Of a DNA stretch of 64,000 nucleotides, positions 31,294-57,016 are shown one piece after another. The position numbers and the translations under genes were made by a program. The notes under the pieces are model-generated. The model had not been told where the DNA came from. It searched no databases and saw nothing but the letters and a program-made list of their open reading frames with translations. The number at the start of each line of letters is the position of its first letter. Position 1 is the stretch's first letter. The DNA is from Mytilus galloprovincialis (Eukaryota; Mollusca; Bivalvia; Mytilida; Mytilidae), in the NCBI RefSeq assembly GCF_965363235.1, contig NC_134842.1:3933112-3997111 (forward strand), written 5' to 3'.

Positions 31294-32001
31294 GTGGGAA
31301 CAAACTGTGCGCCTCTTCTTGCCGACTTCTTCTTATTTTCATATGAATCGGAGTTCCTTCAGACACTTGTCAAAAACAAGAGGATCAAAGAAGCCAGATT
31401 ATTTAATTTCACTTTCAGATATATTGATGATGTTCTTTCCATACACAATTCAAACTTTTCTGATTGGGTTCAATTAATATATCCCTCAGAAGTAGAAATT
31501 AAAGAAACAACAGATACCGCCTCATTTTTAGACTTATATCTCGAATTTGACTTAGACAGTCATCTCAGTACCAGAATCTATGACAAACGACACGATTTTA
31601 ATTTTGAAATTATAAATAACCCCCACCTTAGTAGCAATATACCAACTTCACCTGCATATGGGATATATATTTCCCAACTTATTCGATACTCAAGAGCTTG
31701 CGGTTCCCACTCAGACTTTGTAAAACGTCATCAGTGTCTGAGTAGAAAGTTGATGCACCACTGGTATGTCAAAGAACGTCTCGTCCTTTTTCAAAAAAAA
31801 ATTATCGGAAGGTACCAAGACCTGCTAGATAAATTTCCCGTATCAATTTCACAAATAATACATGATGGTCTTGGTGTATATATTCTGCGTACTGATGTTG
31901 TTTATTATCTTAACAACGTGTTATATTGTTCTTTCATTTGTCTTTGTTCTGTTATAAACATAACTTTTACTGTTGGATTGTTTTATGTGATATCCATTTA
32001 A
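31294..32001 (+). mobile_element. Penelope-like element, truncated reverse transcriptase fragment
   Basis: The open frame begins MGTNCAPLLADFFLFSYESE, then has FRYIDDVLSI (catalytic YIDD at residues 43-46), FLDLYLEFD, YDKRHDFNFEIINNPHLSSN and SPAYGIYISQLIRYSRACGS. These are signature blocks of Penelope-like RT from the active site through the thumb. Everything N-terminal of the GTNCAP block is absent and no GIY-YIG endonuclease is seen, so this is a 5'-truncated, inactive copy. The tail of the frame runs into non-coding 3' sequence. Confidence 0.85.
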
Positions 32002-35743: not shown

Positions 35744-36300
35744 ATAGATACAGTCTATTCAATCAATCCACCATTTGCTAAAAAATCAAGTGTTCAAAGG
35801 GTGGTAACTCTTTTTCTAAAAATAACAAATTTAATTCCTATTCGTTTTTATTAAAAAGATAAATTTGTAACGAATCATTGAAGAGAATGAAATATTTCTG
35901 AATGTTTACCTGTTTGACATATTTATGTGTTATTTTTGAAAAAAGCATCTTCAAGTTTTATGTTGACTTATCGAGGAAGTTTTTAATTTAATCTTGGTAT
36001 ATATGATTAGTTTATTCAACCACAATTGTATCTTTCCCATATCATTATTTTTGTCTGATATATTTAGTATAAAAACAGTATTTCACTAAATATACACGAG
36101 AAAAAATACCCATATTATTTTATAATAAATAACTTATCTATCAGTCTGTATAGGGCATTTAGGAATTTAAATGTTTGTTTCGTATGTACCATTTTTTTAA
36201 TGTTCGTTATTTTTTTTTGTATTCAGATTAAAACAGAAAGGATCATGTTTACTGTTTTACACAAGTCGAATCAAATAGTTATCAAAGGTACCAGGATTTT

Positions 36301-36354
36301 AATTTAGTACGTCAGACGCGCGTTTCGTCTACATAAGACTCATCAGTGACGCTC
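36301..36354 (-). ncRNA. Hammerhead ribozyme (Penelope/retrozyme type)
   Basis: On the minus strand the conserved core is present: CTGATGA (36346-36340), stem II GTCT-tatgt-AGAC, GAAA (36326-36323), then a short stem III pairing ACG with CGT around 'cgcgtctg', and the cleavage dinucleotide TA (cut after 36308). Stem III has a C-A mismatch next to its loop. Stem I pairing is not well defined. A degraded second copy lies in the same orientation at 36415-36471. Confidence 0.7.
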
Positions 36355-36370
36355 ATACAATTTGTATTTG

Positions 36371-37445
36371 TAGTCTTTACGTTAATATATCGTTTATACT
36401 CAAAAGATCTCATACAGATATCAGGTTCCTACTTTGATGCGCGTTTTGTCAACAGGAGACTCATCAGTGACGTCCCAAATCAAATGATAAAACACATCAA
36501 ACGAATGGACAACATCTGTCATAGTCCTGACTTAGTACAGGAATTTTCAAATGTAGAAAATGGTGGATTGAACCTGGTTTAATAGCGCTAAACTTCTGAC
36601 TTGTAGGACAGTCGCATCAAATTCCATTATATTTTAATTATGTGTGAACAAAACAGACTTAATACGCCACTGTCTGTGGTGACGTTTGTTATTCTGAGGT
36701 TTACATGTTTAAATGTACTATTATATAATACAATGGTGCGTTTGTCTGTGCTGTTTGTTCTTGTGTGTGTTTGTACTGTATTCCTATAACGTAGTGTTGT
36801 CATTTTAGTGATATTTATTTTAACATTGTCATATAAACAGTAGGTTTTTGCTGGCCATAGAACCAGGGTCATTCAACCCACTATTTTTTCTGAAAACGTC
36901 CTGAACCAAGTCCAGGATATGGCAGTTGTAATCAAAGAGTCCGTTTCGATGTATGCGTGCGTTTGTTTTTCAGTGATTTTGTTGTTCTGTTGTTTACCTC
37001 TTATAGTTGATGTGTGTTCCTAGGATTTAGTTGCAACCTGGATTTGTTTTCTCTTAATCTATTGATGACGATTAAACAGCGGTATACTACTCTTTCCTTT
37101 ATTTTTGAATCAGCGTGCCTATTACCAGCCCAGTGATCAGTACTGATATGTTAACATGAACATAAGTTTACCGTTTGCAAAACTTCAAATTGTTCGGCAT
37201 AATGCAGGTTTTCACCCAATGAATAGTTTACCTTCATTTGAATTCAGCATAACCTTTCGAAATAGTTGGTCCTCGATGCTATTTAGATTTGTAATCCATT
37301 CGGCATTTCAAATAAATTGTTTGATTCGAGTGTCACTAATGAGTCTCTTGTTGACAAAACGCGCATCAAAGTAGAAACCTGATATCTGTGTGAGTTCTTT
37401 TGAGTATGAACGATAACTGGTATATCATTATAAAGACTACAAATA
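36371..37445. mobile_element. Element bounded by inverted repeats of about 100 bp, Penelope-related
   Basis: 36371-36471 ('actcaaaagatctcatacag', 'atatcaggttcctactttga', 'tgcgcgttttgtcaacagga') is inverted at 37328-37445 with high similarity. Between them are a minus-strand Penelope-associated segment (36480-36640) and no coding sequence. The arms include degraded hammerhead cores. Confidence 0.6.
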
Positions 37446-37684
37446 CAAATTGCAAAAAATGTCTTTAATTGTCCTTCGTTGTTTGTTTAAGCAAACGATT
37501 TTCATTTACATACATTAGGAGAACATATGCACATTTCTTCAATATAGAATAGTTTACTATAATAATAGTACCATCCAATGGATGTTTGTCAATTCTTTTT
37601 GGAGATATATGTATGAGCAAAACTAAAATATTAATTGTTGCGTTGATAAAAATAAATCAGCAATTTTTAACTATCAGAACAATT

Positions 37685-38032: not shown

Positions 38033-38851
38033 CTACTCTGTCTTTATTTTAGGTTTTTGATAAACTAGTTTAGCTCTAATTTGTAGGATCTTATTACTGT
38101 CTAAAAATATGCCAGAAATAAAACCTCCGTATAAACAGCGTGTATCTAGTCCAGTAGCATAGGGATATTGTTGCAAGCTACGTGCTGCGTCATGCCCAAA
38201 ATACACGTGTCGTGGTCCGGACCAAAATGAGGCCCAAGGTTCGCCTTTAAATATTCTGGGAGATGCGATTAGTTCTTCACCAATTGTTTGTAAACTCCTC
38301 ATTGAAATAAAATGAGTTAAATTCTGGTTTTCTAAAGACACTCCTGGAACTATTCCTCCGTGAACAATCAATGCATTTTTAGAAGGAATATCTATAGTGT
38401 ACGGTAACTCTTCCAAAAAATCTACTTCGTCATCATTTAGTTCTGTTGTCCAACTACACTTCCTAGGTGTAACAACTTCCCCATTCCGCCAGGTCATATA
38501 TTGCACGAGAGCAATTTCTTCATGATTGCCTCTTACGGCATACGCATTAAGTTCACGAACTTTTCTTATTATTTGCACACTATGTGGTCCTTTGTTAACA
38601 AGATCACCAACGAATATTAGAAGAATTTTGTCTGACTCATAGTTTGCCAGGACTAAGAGATCTTCGAGTTCCTCTAGACATCCATGGACATCCCCAATTA
38701 TAAATATTTGGCGGTTTTTTATGTCATTTTCATACAAAGTCAGGTGAGGGTTTTTGGGAAGTTTTAGTTTATATTTACTTGATCTTGGTTTTGATGATTT
38801 TTCGAATCTTTTCGTGAAAATTGAATATAAGTAAAACAATATAACTATCAT
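38033..38851 (-). CDS. ApaH-like (ALPH) metallophosphatase, paralogue 1
   Basis: 272 residues in one coding exon. It shows the PPP-family metal and phosphate motifs in order: GDVHG (53-57), GDLVNKGP (82-89), RGNHEE (107-112), VHGG (163-166) and FGHD (218-221), ending with the ApaH-type GLDTxCLYGG. To my knowledge NKGP in place of the DRG of Ser/Thr phosphatases is typical of eukaryotic ApaH-like proteins, relatives of bacterial diadenosine tetraphosphatase; some family members act on mRNA caps. The substrate here is unknown. Residues 1-13 are hydrophobic and followed by Lys/Arg, so a membrane anchor or targeting sequence is possible. An acceptor (poly-T, TAG) lies 9 nt before the ATG, and a 5' UTR exon may end near 39748 (donor GTAAGT). 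Oddity: the otherwise invariant GLDTGC reads GLDTRC here. It is closest to the 41-kb copy. Confidence 0.9.
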   Translation of the reverse strand: MIVILFYLYSIFTKRFEKSSKPRSSKYKLKLPKNPHLTLYENDIKNRQIFIIGDVHGCLEELEDLLVLANYESDKILLIFVGDLVNKGPHSVQIIRKVRELNAYAVRGNHEEIALVQYMTWRNGEVVTPRKCSWTTELNDDEVDFLEELPYTIDIPSKNALIVHGGIVPGVSLENQNLTHFISMRSLQTIGEELIASPRIFKGEPWASFWSGPRHVYFGHDAARSLQQYPYATGLDTRCLYGGFISGIFLDSNKILQIRAKLVYQKPKIKTE

Positions 38852-41130: not shown

Positions 41131-41934
41131 TTAAGGTGTTCGGTATACACGCTTTGCTTTAATTTGTAAAATCTTTTTACTGTCAACAAATATACCAGTT
41201 AGAAAACCGCCATATAAACATCCAGTATCTAGTCCCGTGGCAAACGAATATTGCTGTAGTCCACGCGCAGCGTCATGTCCGAAGTACACGTGACCAGGTC
41301 CAAACCATAGTGAGGCCCAGGCTTCATTTAACGATATACTGGATGAAGCGATTAATTTATCACCGTTCCTTTGTAAACTCCTCATTGTAATAAAATCTGT
41401 TAAATTCTGGTTTTCCAAAGACACCCCTGGTACTATTCCTCCGTGTACAATTATAGCATCTTTTGCTGGAATTTCTATAGTATATGGCAATTCTTGTAAG
41501 AAATGTATTTCATCTTCATCCAAGTCTTTTATCCAATTGTACTTTTCCGGAATGACAACATTCCTTTTCCGCCAGTTGAAATAATGCATGAGAGCCTTTT
41601 CCTCATGATTGCCCCTTACGGCATACGCATTAAGTTCACGAACTTTTCTTATTGTTTTTACACTATGTGGCCCTTTGTTAACAATATCACCAACGAATAC
41701 TGGTAGAATTCGGTCTGCCTCGCAGTTTGCTAGAATCAAGAGATCTTTGAGTTCATCATAGCATCCATGGACATCACCAATTATAAGTATTTGTCGATTT
41801 TGTATGTTCTTATCATTCAAGATTAGATGTTGTGTTTTCGGGAGTACAAGTTTACACATGCTTGATCTATGCTCCGTAGATTTTTCGAATTGTTTAGTGA
41901 AAACATTGTATAAATGAAACAGAACGGCTATCAT
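41131..41934 (-). CDS. ApaH-like (ALPH) metallophosphatase, paralogue 2
   Basis: 267 residues. Motif spacing is identical to paralogue 1: GDVHG 53-57, GDIVNKGP 82-89, RGNHEE 107-112, VHGG 163-166, YFGHD near 217-221, then a canonical GLDTGCLYGG. All predicted metal ligands are present, so it should be catalytically competent. The N-terminus (MIAVLFHLYNVFTKQFEK) is a short hydrophobic stretch followed by basic residues. The acceptor TTTCCTTTCAG sits 9 nt before the ATG, as in paralogues 1 and 3, which points to a conserved 5' UTR intron. The extensive identity to paralogue 1 (for example RKVRELNAYAVRGNHEE) marks a recent tandem duplication. The substrate is not determinable from sequence. Confidence 0.92.
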   Translation of the reverse strand: MIAVLFHLYNVFTKQFEKSTEHRSSMCKLVLPKTQHLILNDKNIQNRQILIIGDVHGCYDELKDLLILANCEADRILPVFVGDIVNKGPHSVKTIRKVRELNAYAVRGNHEEKALMHYFNWRKRNVVIPEKYNWIKDLDEDEIHFLQELPYTIEIPAKDAIIVHGGIVPGVSLENQNLTDFITMRSLQRNGDKLIASSSISLNEAWASLWFGPGHVYFGHDAARGLQQYSFATGLDTGCLYGGFLTGIFVDSKKILQIKAKRVYRTP

Positions 41935-42594
41935 ATTTTATCCCTGAAAGGAAAAATTAAGATTAAATTCAAATTAAATGATGTCTGTTTTAAATAATTC
42001 GCACAATTCAAAAACTTGTTTGTCAACATCTTAATCAAATTTATAATCGACTTCAACTACCTTTTTATATGCATCTTTGTTACATTTTTTATATATTTGT
42101 TTGAATTTGATATTCAGTTGACTGTGTTGTTTGTCTTTGATGTATTTTTACACAGTTTTTCTATCATGCTGGATCTTAGTTATCATCATACTAACCTGCG
42201 AAATCTTTTTGTGTTGCACACAAAATTTTTCAATAAAACGGAACTATAAAGTGAGAAGTTTAGCTACCTTTAAAACAGATTTGTCTCTTCAAAATGTAGC
42301 AAGTCGGGATATGAGGGTAATTTTCCATTCGTTCCTTTTGGTGATTAAGTCTAACCTCAGTTTTATGGACATTTCCTTTTTGACTTTACCTTGGAGTTTT
42401 TTTGTTGTTGTTATAAACATTTTTAACTTGTTTTACCACAATATTTCAATTTTCCCGTATAAAGTTAAAATTGAATACGGCATACACCAGCAGCGAGTTT
42501 GGTATTTAGGCATTCAGAATTGAAAATGTCATCATTAAGTACCTCAAATTAGATTTGCTGTACCTACCTTAAAAAAAAGTACAATTATGTACAA

Positions 42595-42680
42595 TAAACT
42601 CATCATAGATACCAGGATTCAAATTTCACATATTTGCACTGGATGCGCGTTTCGTCTTCAAAAGACTCATCAGTGACACT
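42595..42680 (-). repeat. Degenerate hammerhead-containing repeat end
   Basis: On the minus strand CTGATGA, stem II GTCTT-ttg-AAGAC and GAAA are present, but stem III and the cleavage site are eroded. It faces the intact copy at 42861-42926, so the two form an inverted pair bounding about 340 bp. Confidence 0.6.
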
Positions 42681-42860
42681 CGAATAAAAAAAAAAGGCCA
42701 AATACAGTACGAAGTTTAAGAGCATTGAGTACTAAAAATTCTTAAAAGGTTTTCCAAATACAGTTAAAGTAATATATTCATGAAAAACTAAGATTAAATA
42801 ATTCATTTATTGCGAAATTGTTATTGCTGATAAATTCAATGAAAGTTATAACATTATTTT

Positions 42861-42926
42861 AATTTGAGCGTCACTGATGAGTCTTATATAGACGAAACGC
42901 GCGTCTAGCGTACTAAATTATAATCC
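42861..42926 (+). ncRNA. Hammerhead ribozyme (Penelope/retrozyme type), best copy
   Basis: All core elements are present: CTGATGA at 42874-42880, stem II GTCT-tatat-AGAC at 42881-42893, GAAA at 42894-42897, stem III ACGC-gcgtcta-GCGT (42897-42911, with the A15.1-U16.1 pair) and cleavage after A42912. A possible outer stem I pairs TAATTT (42860-42865) with AAATTA (42915-42920) across an internal loop. Hammerheads of this form with a short stem III are known in Penelope-like elements and in animal retrozymes, including those of bivalves. Confidence 0.8.
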
Positions 42927-43694
42927 TGGTTCCTTTGATTACTATTATAACATTACCATTATCAGAACAATGTTGTTTGACATTCCAATTGTGTAATTGT
43001 AGAGAATTCCATTTAAGATATAATACAAAATTGTTGCGTGACTGTCAGAAAGTGCAATCCTGATCAATTAAATAAATATACATACATAAGCAAACAAAAG
43101 AAACCTGGTGTGATTTTCAGAAGATCTTGATAACTTTAAGCATCTTTCCCATTCAGTCAGCTGTACTAATAATGAAGACGATCTCGCACAGAAAAATGGA
43201 CGCCCCACCTTGGCAAGCGTTTTACTGTCGATCGGAAGAAGACCAAGGATTTATCGTAATTCTATTTCTCAGTCAACATAAAGGGTTTTTTCCACAATGT
43301 GTATTCCTAGAAAATTGAAAAAAATGATAAAGTAACAAAACATTGCGTAACTGTTAGAAGATGTGAACCCGATAATTTTAATGTACACACATCATTTTCA
43401 AACAATTAACATTCAGAAGGTGTTTATAAACAGATAGAATTCATTGTCATGTAATGTTACACCATTACGTTGTGATTTAAAGAAGGGGCATTTACACAGT
43501 TATCTATGTCCTACAGATTGTTTTAATCTGTGCATTTTTGTACAAAGAATTTCCCTAGTTATCTTTCCTATCTATCCAGCTAAAAAAAGAATAAGCCATG
43601 TTTTTTTCCTTTGGTTTTCGATCCTTTCCCAAATATATGACGTATCCTAAGCGCAAGGTATGACTGGTCACGAGCCTGTAAATCAGTGGTTGTC

Positions 43695-49497: not shown

Positions 49498-50319
49498 CTA
49501 TTCAGGAGTAACATAAACCTTTTTAGCCTTGACATGTATCATCATCTGACTATCCAGAAATATGCCTGTCAACCAGTTTCCGTACAAACATCCGGAGTCA
49601 AGTCCAGTGGCGTAGGAATATTGCTGCAGTTTTCGTGCAGCGTCGTGTCCGAAATATACATGTTCTGGGCCTTCCCACAGCGATGCCCACGGTTTACCTA
49701 TAAGCCGATTAGCTGATGCTGTTAATGTGTCTCCGTCCTTAAATAAGCTTCTCATAGTAATAAAATTTGTATAATCCTGTTCTTCTAGTGGTGTTCCTGG
49801 GACTAAACCGCCGTGAACGATAACTGAATTCTTAGAAGGTATATGTATAGTATATGGCAGTTCCTGTATGAACCGGATGTCGTCTGCGACAAGCTCTGTA
49901 GTCCATTTGTATTTATCTGGAACAATATAATCCACACGTTCCTGTCGACTCAAACATTGCTTTAACACAGCTTCGTCATGGTTACCTCTGACAGCATAAC
50001 CGTTCAGTTCGACGCGAATTCGTCTGATGGTTGAAACGTTATGTGGTCCTTTGTTTGCTAAATCACCAACAAATATTGGCAAAAGTTGTTTACCTTTTAA
50101 CTTACTTTTTGCTAGGTGTAAAAGTTCATTAAGTTCGTCGAGACATCCATGAACATCACCAATAATAAATATTTCACGATCTTTAATATCTTCAGCTGTT
50201 AGTACAAGATGAGGTGTCTTAGGTAGATTGATATTGTTTTTACTTGACCGTTTATTAGATGTCGTTTCTGTAATTTTGTTAAATAGTGATGAGTATATGC
50301 AGTATAATAAGGCCGCCAT
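49498..50319 (-). CDS. ApaH-like (ALPH) metallophosphatase, paralogue 3
   Basis: 273 residues: GDVHG (54-58), GDLANKGP (85-92), RGNHDE (111-116), VHGG (168-171), YFGHD, then GLDSGCLYGN. All metal-binding positions are kept. Compared with paralogues 1 and 2, the spacing between the first two motifs is two residues longer (the KLKGKQ stretch) and the second motif reads LANKGP; both features are shared with paralogue 4, which defines a second subfamily. The N-terminus MAALLYCIYSSLF is hydrophobic and could be a membrane anchor or targeting signal. The acceptor CTTTTAG lies 9 nt before the ATG, as in paralogues 1 and 2. Start choice: the first Met gives the conserved hydrophobic N-terminus. Confidence 0.92.
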   Translation of the reverse strand: MAALLYCIYSSLFNKITETTSNKRSSKNNINLPKTPHLVLTAEDIKDREIFIIGDVHGCLDELNELLHLAKSKLKGKQLLPIFVGDLANKGPHNVSTIRRIRVELNGYAVRGNHDEAVLKQCLSRQERVDYIVPDKYKWTTELVADDIRFIQELPYTIHIPSKNSVIVHGGLVPGTPLEEQDYTNFITMRSLFKDGDTLTASANRLIGKPWASLWEGPEHVYFGHDAARKLQQYSYATGLDSGCLYGNWLTGIFLDSQMMIHVKAKKVYVTPE

Positions 50320-56164: not shown

Positions 56165-57016
56165 ATGTACAGTGCTTCAATGACATCCTTGTTAATTATT
56201 ATAACATCGCTACTGAGAACCAGAAAGCCGATATCTACCGTGAGAAGGTTCACTAAATATAAACTTCCGCTTCCAAAATCTCTCCATCTTACTTTAGAAA
56301 ATAGCTTTATACAAGGTAGAGACATTTTCATTATTGGTGATGTCCATGGGTGTTTGGACGAACTAGAAGAGCTCCTCGAATTAGCTAAGCTAGAAATAAA
56401 AGAAAAGAAAATGTTACCTATATTTGTGGGTGATTTGGCGAACAAAGGACCGCGTAATTTAATGACCATCAGGAAAGTCCGACAGATGGATGCTTTAGCT
56501 GTACGGGGAAATCACGAAGAAGCAATAATTCAACATTATTTAAATTTGCAAAATGATTTAAACTATGTTATACCAGAGGTATTCAAATGGATCACGGAGC
56601 TTAACACGGACGATATCACTTATCTCTTAGAATTGCCGTACACCATATCTATTCCGTGGAGGAATATACTAATTGTACATGCTGGGTTAGTGCCCGGGAT
56701 TCCAATTCATCAACAAAATCTTGATAACTTTATTCATATTAGAAACTTATATCAAGATAACGATGGTAACTTATTAGCTTCAGAACTGCCATTTCAGGGT
56801 GAGGCTTGGGCCTCTTTGTGGTCAGGACCTGAACATGTATATTTTGGTCATGATGCTTCAAGAAAATTGCAACAGCATCCATATGCGACCGGACTTGACA
56901 CGGGTTGTTTATATGGTAATATGCTTTCGGGAATATTTATTAACAGTAAGAAAATGTTACAAGTAAAAGCCAAGAAGGTATATTCGGAACCAAAAGGTTT
57001 TAAAACACCTAAATGA
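56165..57016 (+). CDS. ApaH-like (ALPH) metallophosphatase, paralogue 4
   Basis: 283 residues, on the opposite strand to the other three. Motifs: GDVHG (58-62), GDLANKGP (89-96), RGNHEE (114-119), then VHAG in place of VHGG, YFGHD and GLDTGCLYGN. The His of VHAG, the metal ligand, is kept. The LANKGP motif and the two-residue-longer spacing group it with paralogue 3. The N-terminus MYSASMTSLLIIITSLLRTR is hydrophobic then basic: a possible signal anchor or mitochondrial signal. A possible acceptor (TTGGTATCAG) lies 5 nt before the ATG, a different distance from the other copies. A poly(A) signal AATAAA follows at about 57077. It is presumed active; substrate unknown. Confidence 0.92.
   Translation: MYSASMTSLLIIITSLLRTRKPISTVRRFTKYKLPLPKSLHLTLENSFIQGRDIFIIGDVHGCLDELEELLELAKLEIKEKKMLPIFVGDLANKGPRNLMTIRKVRQMDALAVRGNHEEAIIQHYLNLQNDLNYVIPEVFKWITELNTDDITYLLELPYTISIPWRNILIVHAGLVPGIPIHQQNLDNFIHIRNLYQDNDGNLLASELPFQGEAWASLWSGPEHVYFGHDASRKLQQHPYATGLDTGCLYGNMLSGIFINSKKMLQVKAKKVYSEPKGFKTPK

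Follow-up and report, generated by a model that had tools for sequence, protein, structure and literature searches.

A type I hammerhead in a 5'-truncated retrozyme copy of Mytilus galloprovincialis, and the common 3' end of its relatives

What kind of repeat carries the hammerhead motif found in the stretch of Mytilus galloprovincialis DNA analyzed here (64 kb in all, called the window below), and how did it come to lie there? The initial annotation had assigned the motif to a Penelope-type repeat and had noted an eroded copy facing it about 200 bp away, with the suggestion that the two might bound a small non-autonomous unit.

Inspection of the sequence confirmed each part of the core as first described, from CTGATGA through a 4-bp stem II with a 5-nt loop and GAAA to a stem III closed by an A-U pair (Table 1). 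The window hammerhead is real: its catalytic core is complete and stems II and III are formed as described. The recommended search with a covariance model gave a divided answer, in that the motif matches Rfam Hammerhead_1 over the whole model (positions 1-45) but at 30.0 bits, under the gathering threshold of 34; a search of the whole 64-kb window returned no Rfam match at gathering. This empty search carries little weight, since well-kept relatives score no more than 31.8-34 bits on the same model. Thirteen copies of subfamilies A and B (defined below) in five loci reached 32.6-34 bits and two poorer ones 30.1 and 28.2 (33 kb searched, E up to 0.01); copies of family D score 31.8. Minimal hammerheads lacking a helix III loop are known from Penelope-like elements. 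Helix III is a loopless palindrome, ACGCGCGU, in the window hammerhead and likewise in the sampled retrozyme copies. Minimum-energy folding gives no support for the hammerhead fold, which was returned neither for the window copy (folding z +0.53) nor for its left neighbour (-0.52) nor for an intact copy (+0.90). Such a miss is not unusual with a small three-way junction.

Table 1. Features of the two retrozyme copies in the window. Unit phase 1 is the C of CTGATGA.
Feature	Position	Strand	Basis or detail
5'-truncated retrozyme copy, subfamily A (right copy), unit phase -17 to +73	42857-42946	+	93% identical to the L001 monomer (356 bp) across 90 bp
Type I hammerhead ribozyme	42868-42911	+	Rfam RF00163 Hammerhead_1, 30.0 bits, E 2.5e-5 (701 bp searched)
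CTGATGA	42874-42880	+	read on the sequence
Stem II, GTCT/AGAC	42881-42884 with 42890-42893	+	5-nt loop TATAT
GAAA	42894-42897	+	read on the sequence
Stem III, ACGC/GCGU closed by A42897-U42904	42897-42904	+	palindromic, no loop
Predicted cleavage triplet GUC	42903-42905	+	cut between 42905 and 42906, from the type I layout on the sequence
Spacer, 73 bp	42784-42856		without A or B match (BLAST, L001 and L021 monomers)
5'-truncated retrozyme copy, subfamily B (left copy), phase 250 to 83	42588-42783	-	84% identical to the L021 monomer (364 bp) across 201 aligned columns
Degraded hammerhead of left copy	42644-42682	-	Rfam RF00008, 24.9 bits (gathering 48.5)

Cleavage had been expected after position 42912; the type I layout moves it upstream and gives U42906 as the predicted new 5' end. 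Stem I contains a mismatch, C42872-A42907, at a pair that is C-G in 47 of 52 sampled copies. Judging from the sequence, sense RNA that crosses the right copy could cut itself after C42905, probably slowly, because of this mismatch and of the loopless palindromic stem III. A cloned mussel repeat self-cleaves at about 0.1 per minute according to the main text of PMC7229834, and the mismatch leads us to predict slower cutting than that.

The core pattern CTGATGA-N13-GAAA has 33,906 matches (16,733 + 17,173) in the 1.385-Gb genome and its reversed control 686 (356 + 330), so that the pattern is present beyond chance. Many of the cores stand in tandem. Monomers of 356 bp (subfamily A) and 364 bp (subfamily B) both match copies in the window, while family D (loci L004/L040, L023 and L066) is built of 350-bp units; a 32-place pattern for it that leaves the 5-base loop free is matched exactly 4,246 times. 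Metazoan non-LTR retrozymes are characterized by a low G+C content and by the lack of LTR, PBS, PPT and ORF; by inspection, the present units are rich in A and T and leave no room for a large ORF. The right copy is closer to A than to B (82% identity to the latter) and the left copy closer to B than to A (78% to the latter). A tandem array of 44 listed D units at an exact 350-bp spacing, with hammerheads identical over the pattern, was observed in L040 and G000:C1:433306-448387. A candidate minus-strand hammerhead in the unit body (CTGATGATACCC...) was discarded, hand reading having found no stem II beside its core.

Non-LTR retrozymes have been described in this very species (Cervera and de la Pena 2020). 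As set out in the main text of that paper (PMC7229834), they are tandem repeats of ~350-390 bp with a type I hammerhead, exist in thousands of copies with more than one ribozyme family, and are expressed as small circular RNAs. As far as a comparison with that text goes, the present repeats agree in the size of their units, in copy number, in hammerhead type and in having more than one ribozyme family. The same text gives ~5000 motifs in a draft genome, in contrast to the number of exact core patterns counted here, and describes tandems, whereas the window copy is a fragment. The type I hammerhead of metazoan non-LTR retrozymes was recovered by Rfam matches, by covariation and in D copies; short tandems (~150-450 bp) are formed by the family at 356, 364 and 350 bp, the window copies being single truncated inserts. 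The window hammerhead is part of a truncated copy of an already described, very abundant kind of retrozyme, and the earlier mention of animal retrozymes thus proved apt. The Penelope-type label did not: the repeat is the 356-bp unit, the nearest remnant resembling a reverse transcriptase (P0002) lies at 31294-32001, and a tblastn search with P0001, one GIY-YIG Penelope-like protein of this genome, gave no match in the window at E 1e-3. By that search the window copy lacks the reverse transcriptase plus GIY-YIG ORF in one unit by which Penelope-like elements are recognized.

Support for the fold was sought in paired base changes. Alignment A1 took 52 rows from subfamilies A and B, including the L077 copy (see below), and left out 37 of the 89 hammerhead copies. 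It keeps 95.9% of pair cells and has two-sided changes at none of its 13 pairs, as dead copies would lead one to expect. Stem changes lacking compensation had been put forward as evidence against the ribozyme, a test that is misleading for dead retrocopies: it finds no compensation within A and B, and finds some once D is included. Relative to A and B, family D differs on both sides at one stem I pair, two stem II pairs and one stem III pair, and L008 has a further stem III pair changed on both sides. In 18 distinct rows, two-sided changes fall at 5 of 13 pairs, spread over stems I, II and III (a number that 7 of 500 shuffles reached, their mean being 2.4), and occupy 13 cells (3.2 in shuffles, 0 of 500); the covariation score is 0.274 as compared to 0.160 in shuffles (0 of 500). 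Further pair types are no more numerous than in shuffles (220 of 500, same rows). The set consisted of 19 rows chosen to include D, whose three rows are one lineage and the source of four of the five covarying pairs; the result therefore shows that D fits the hammerhead, not that many independent events occurred. Family D, altered on both sides of pairs in each of the three stems, supports the hammerhead fold. Searched alone, the D stretch gave three Hammerhead_1 matches at 31.8 bits, and so the absence of any D hammerhead from the 33-kb Rfam search (E up to 0.01), which listed none in L067 or L077 either, is weak evidence.

Where retrozyme copies begin and end was mapped in 28 C1 regions (20 + 8, within the first 4.6 Mb), in the 29 loci best matching the left copy, and in the window. 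BLAST delivered 95 unique copies, of which the 80 with at least 80% identity were used for end counts and the 15 below were dropped. Of 30 A copies, 20 had their 3' end at phase 72-78; of 50 B copies, 38 had it at phase 77-85. In the alignment the two ranges fall on identical columns, directly before ACCACTGGG, so that 58 of the 80 copies share a common 3' end; their 5' ends are scattered. In the C1 regions alone, the common end was found in 16 of 24 A and 9 of 15 B copies. The densest 9-nt window contained 20 (A) and 38 (B) 3' ends versus 5 and 4 5' ends, and uniform placement gave maxima of 6 and 8 in 500 trials. Among the 58 copies, 36 do not reach 350 bp; the longest measures 1,501 bp. The three D loci with at least 94% identity all end at this common site too, at phase 65-66; a D-like match in L017 (85%) is an exception, ending at phase 9. 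The remaining 22 A and B copies (10 A, 12 B) have other 3' ends, and four of these copies belong to a single local repeat (L047). The loci are not a random draw: they favor copies with a hammerhead or resembling the left copy, which could hide copies that stopped earlier, yet this choice does not force copies to end at the common site.

Counts of 28-mers in the whole genome, allowing up to 3 mismatches, amount to 31,888 for the A tail (phase 44-71), 20,866 for the A body (243-270) and 19,233 for the stem-loop sequence (phase 78-105, A plus B together), with 0 for each reversed control. Their order is the one predicted by 5' truncation from a common 3' end, although differences in conservation could contribute. 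A target-site duplication sought at the 58 copies scored about as shuffled flanks did (4.93 vs 4.63 and 4.67 vs 4.24 in two comparisons), and no target motif was seen at the copies. The window copy is flanked by a perfect 11-bp repeat (0.13 expected at that length among 58 copies); its left half may be element sequence, so it is not relied on as a duplication.

Directly 3' of the common end lies a conserved stem-loop (ACCACTGGG...CCCAGT). Its folding z is -2.5 in A and -2.8 in B, a stability reached by 3 and by 0 of 200 shuffles, respectively. The consensus of 42 sequences has 20 pairs, three with two-sided changes (two of these in the second hairpin), and a small covariation term, -0.13. The stem-loop is a likely binding site for the reverse transcriptase. 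A common 3' end beside it, combined with scattered 5' ends, agrees with reverse transcription that starts inside a circular or multimeric RNA. We think it very probable that the window hammerhead makes up the 3'-terminal part of a non-LTR retrozyme insert that lacks its 5' part and is probably dead, and that such copies stem from reverse transcription begun internally. In working elements, as published for mussel, transcription would yield multimers that the hammerhead cuts and that are then circularized; on this RNA, whether circular or multimeric, reverse transcription would begin at one fixed position in the interior, which lies 33-53 nt 3' of the cleavage site and immediately 5' of the stem-loop, and would stop at variable points. 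Presumably this leaves copies of less than 100 bp to more than 1 kb with one 3' end, as the structure of the copies suggests. The right copy in the window would be such an insert, of ~90-102 bp: its 5' limit is uncertain (42845-42857), and alignment with other units extends it to 102 bp and into the spacer, the right edge of which may belong to the copy. Function of this insert is most likely none.

A degraded minus-strand copy does exist at the distance first reported, its core (42673-42650, minus strand) being 200 bp from that of the right copy, core to core; however, its 3' end is at its left side and the two copies point away from each other. Hand reading of alignment A3 showed the left-copy core to be kept but pairing to be lost at one position of stem III and at two positions of stem I next to the cleavage site. 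The copies have different truncation phases, each with the common 3' end, and stand in divergent orientation ~73 bp apart. When the pair (401 bp) was sought in the genome, the whole length was found only in the window itself among the best 40 of 7791 candidates scored, a rarer second copy being possible. The left neighbor is most likely a separate insert of the other subfamily, independently placed in the opposite orientation, since the copies belong to different subfamilies, have their own 5' truncations, both carry the common 3' end and are oriented outward.

Alternatively, the inverted pair might record one double-ended insertion in the Penelope style, with two RNAs primed on both DNA strands and their 3' ends outward. 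A Penelope-like protein with the ability to extend both strands has been published, that of the Anolis element PAc, for which reverse transcription has an internal start, at a stem-loop (Frangieh et al. 2024; PMC11167929). The window pair has the minus-then-plus orientation, as do 19 of the 22 neighboring pairs within 6 kb among 147 listed matches of the GIY-YIG family in this genome (2 others being same-strand and 1 plus-then-minus); an enzyme that primes on both strands could leave such pairs. Retrozymes are arranged differently. Among 95 retrozyme-like cores listed on C1 (5 of the 100 listed core places, unlike the family, were left out), 13 neighbors within 1 kb are same-strand and none is inverted; at 1-6 kb, 7 are same-strand, 5 minus-plus and 2 plus-minus. 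This count, the different subfamilies of the two copies and the want of a second pair among the candidates scored all argue against a single event, which we regard as improbable. Independent insertion of two retrozyme copies remains the preferred reading.

An even less likely alternative assigns the hammerhead to a Penelope-like element, as part of its pseudo-LTR, and not to a retrozyme. So truncated a copy cannot reveal what sequence formerly lay upstream, and two Penelope-like loci do associate with hammerheads. One, L067, has its own hammerhead-like motif in two inverted copies (2893 plus and 653 minus) with a long stem II, GGTGCC/GGCACC; this motif differs from that in the window in stem II and loop. 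The other, L077, has a 795-aa open frame scoring 27.7 bits for GIY-YIG, above the cut-off, and 24.9 bits for RVT_1, below the cut-off of 29.6. The 3' module of retrozyme B adjoins its 3' UTR at both inverted ends, ending at or near the retrozyme tail, in a copy whose core reads CTAATGA and which is probably inactive, to judge by that change. Among the best 40 of 2347 candidates scored for this type of junction, only L077's own two ends reach into the retrozyme part. L077 is one event, and an inverted duplication, at the DNA level, of a Penelope-retrozyme junction would look alike. Given in addition the close identity of the window copy to the 356-bp retrozyme unit, we consider a pseudo-LTR origin very unlikely and keep to the truncated retrozyme insert. 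That the two hammerheads delimit a small non-autonomous element mobilized whole, as first proposed, is hardly credible, for its inverted arms (55 nt, 84% complementary, and 25 nt, 80%, separated by 160 and 288 nt) are the 3' module common to retrozyme copies, which here come from different subfamilies and have truncations of their own, and the pair was not met again among the candidates scored.

The truncated insert in the window is itself ordinary; of interest are the 3' end that the copies share and the help it may give in finding the retrozyme reverse transcriptase. Truncated single copies, a common 3' end and the stem-loop are not described in the main text of PMC7229834, where the strings "truncat" and "target site" are absent, and a common 3' end of animal retrozymes is not described in the main texts or passages, supplements apart, of PMC7229834, PMC11167929 or PMC7761336. 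The family pattern bears on a question left by the main text of PMC7229834, namely which enzyme, starting where, returns retrozyme circles to DNA. PAc is alike in its internal start at a stem-loop 3' of the hammerhead, in its tandem copies and in genomic copies with shared ends; it differs from the retrozymes in that their units are ~350 bp, and close divergent pairs, frequent among GIY-YIG matches here, are missing within 1 kb among the listed retrozyme cores. The GIY-YIG family numbers at least 147 matches (150 of 1001 candidates scored), and 9 of 10 loci fetched are also similar to the L077 Penelope-like protein. As to the enzyme, the L077 chimera points to Penelope-like elements, whereas the orientation statistics point away from them. 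It could go either way, in our judgment, that a single fixed internal start with the stem-loop foot as landing site for the reverse transcriptase is a rule common to A, B and D, and that a Penelope-like enzyme can use this start, as in the L077 chimera. Such a start, fixed and next to a conserved stem-loop, offers a concrete RNA element for testing, and the genome holds tens of thousands of insertion records.

The remnant P0002 (plus strand, motif RYIDD) is weakly similar to the L077 protein (E 0.001) and had no Pfam match at 0.01. A first look at the genome listed 44,840 candidate relatives, and all 150 that were scored matched. Relatives lie near some retrozyme copies; as a retrozyme partner P0002 was set aside, L017 and L028 looking like retrozymes inserted in, or recombined with, a reverse transcriptase fragment. 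In these two loci the P0002-like fragments are interrupted by, or joined to, the retrozyme at nearly the same point, perhaps as one old insertion since copied.

Elsewhere in the window, the best-scoring hammerhead seen (36352-36309, minus strand, 33.8 bits) is carried by a truncated A copy (36273-36355, minus strand, 96%) with the same 3' end. Adjacent to it, positions 36356-37455 form an inverted repeat whose arms, 84 nt (93%) and 40 nt (83%) long, enclose an old retrozyme in which CAAAA replaces GAAA, a variant with 23 exact matches. This inverted pair was rejected as a mobile unit: of its 7 genome matches, two are the arms themselves, alone in matching over most of the length, and the other five span 38-45 nt. 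The ORF nearest to the window hammerhead, at 41131-41934 on the minus strand, encodes a calcineurin-like phosphoesterase (Pfam; 4 of 11 window ORFs scanned). ORFs similar to the eye at 38033-38851, 49498-50319 and 56165-57016 hint at a gene cluster in this part of the window. Also by eye, two stretches within 43021-43440 resemble diverged copies of each other (TTGCGT-AACTGT-AGAA).
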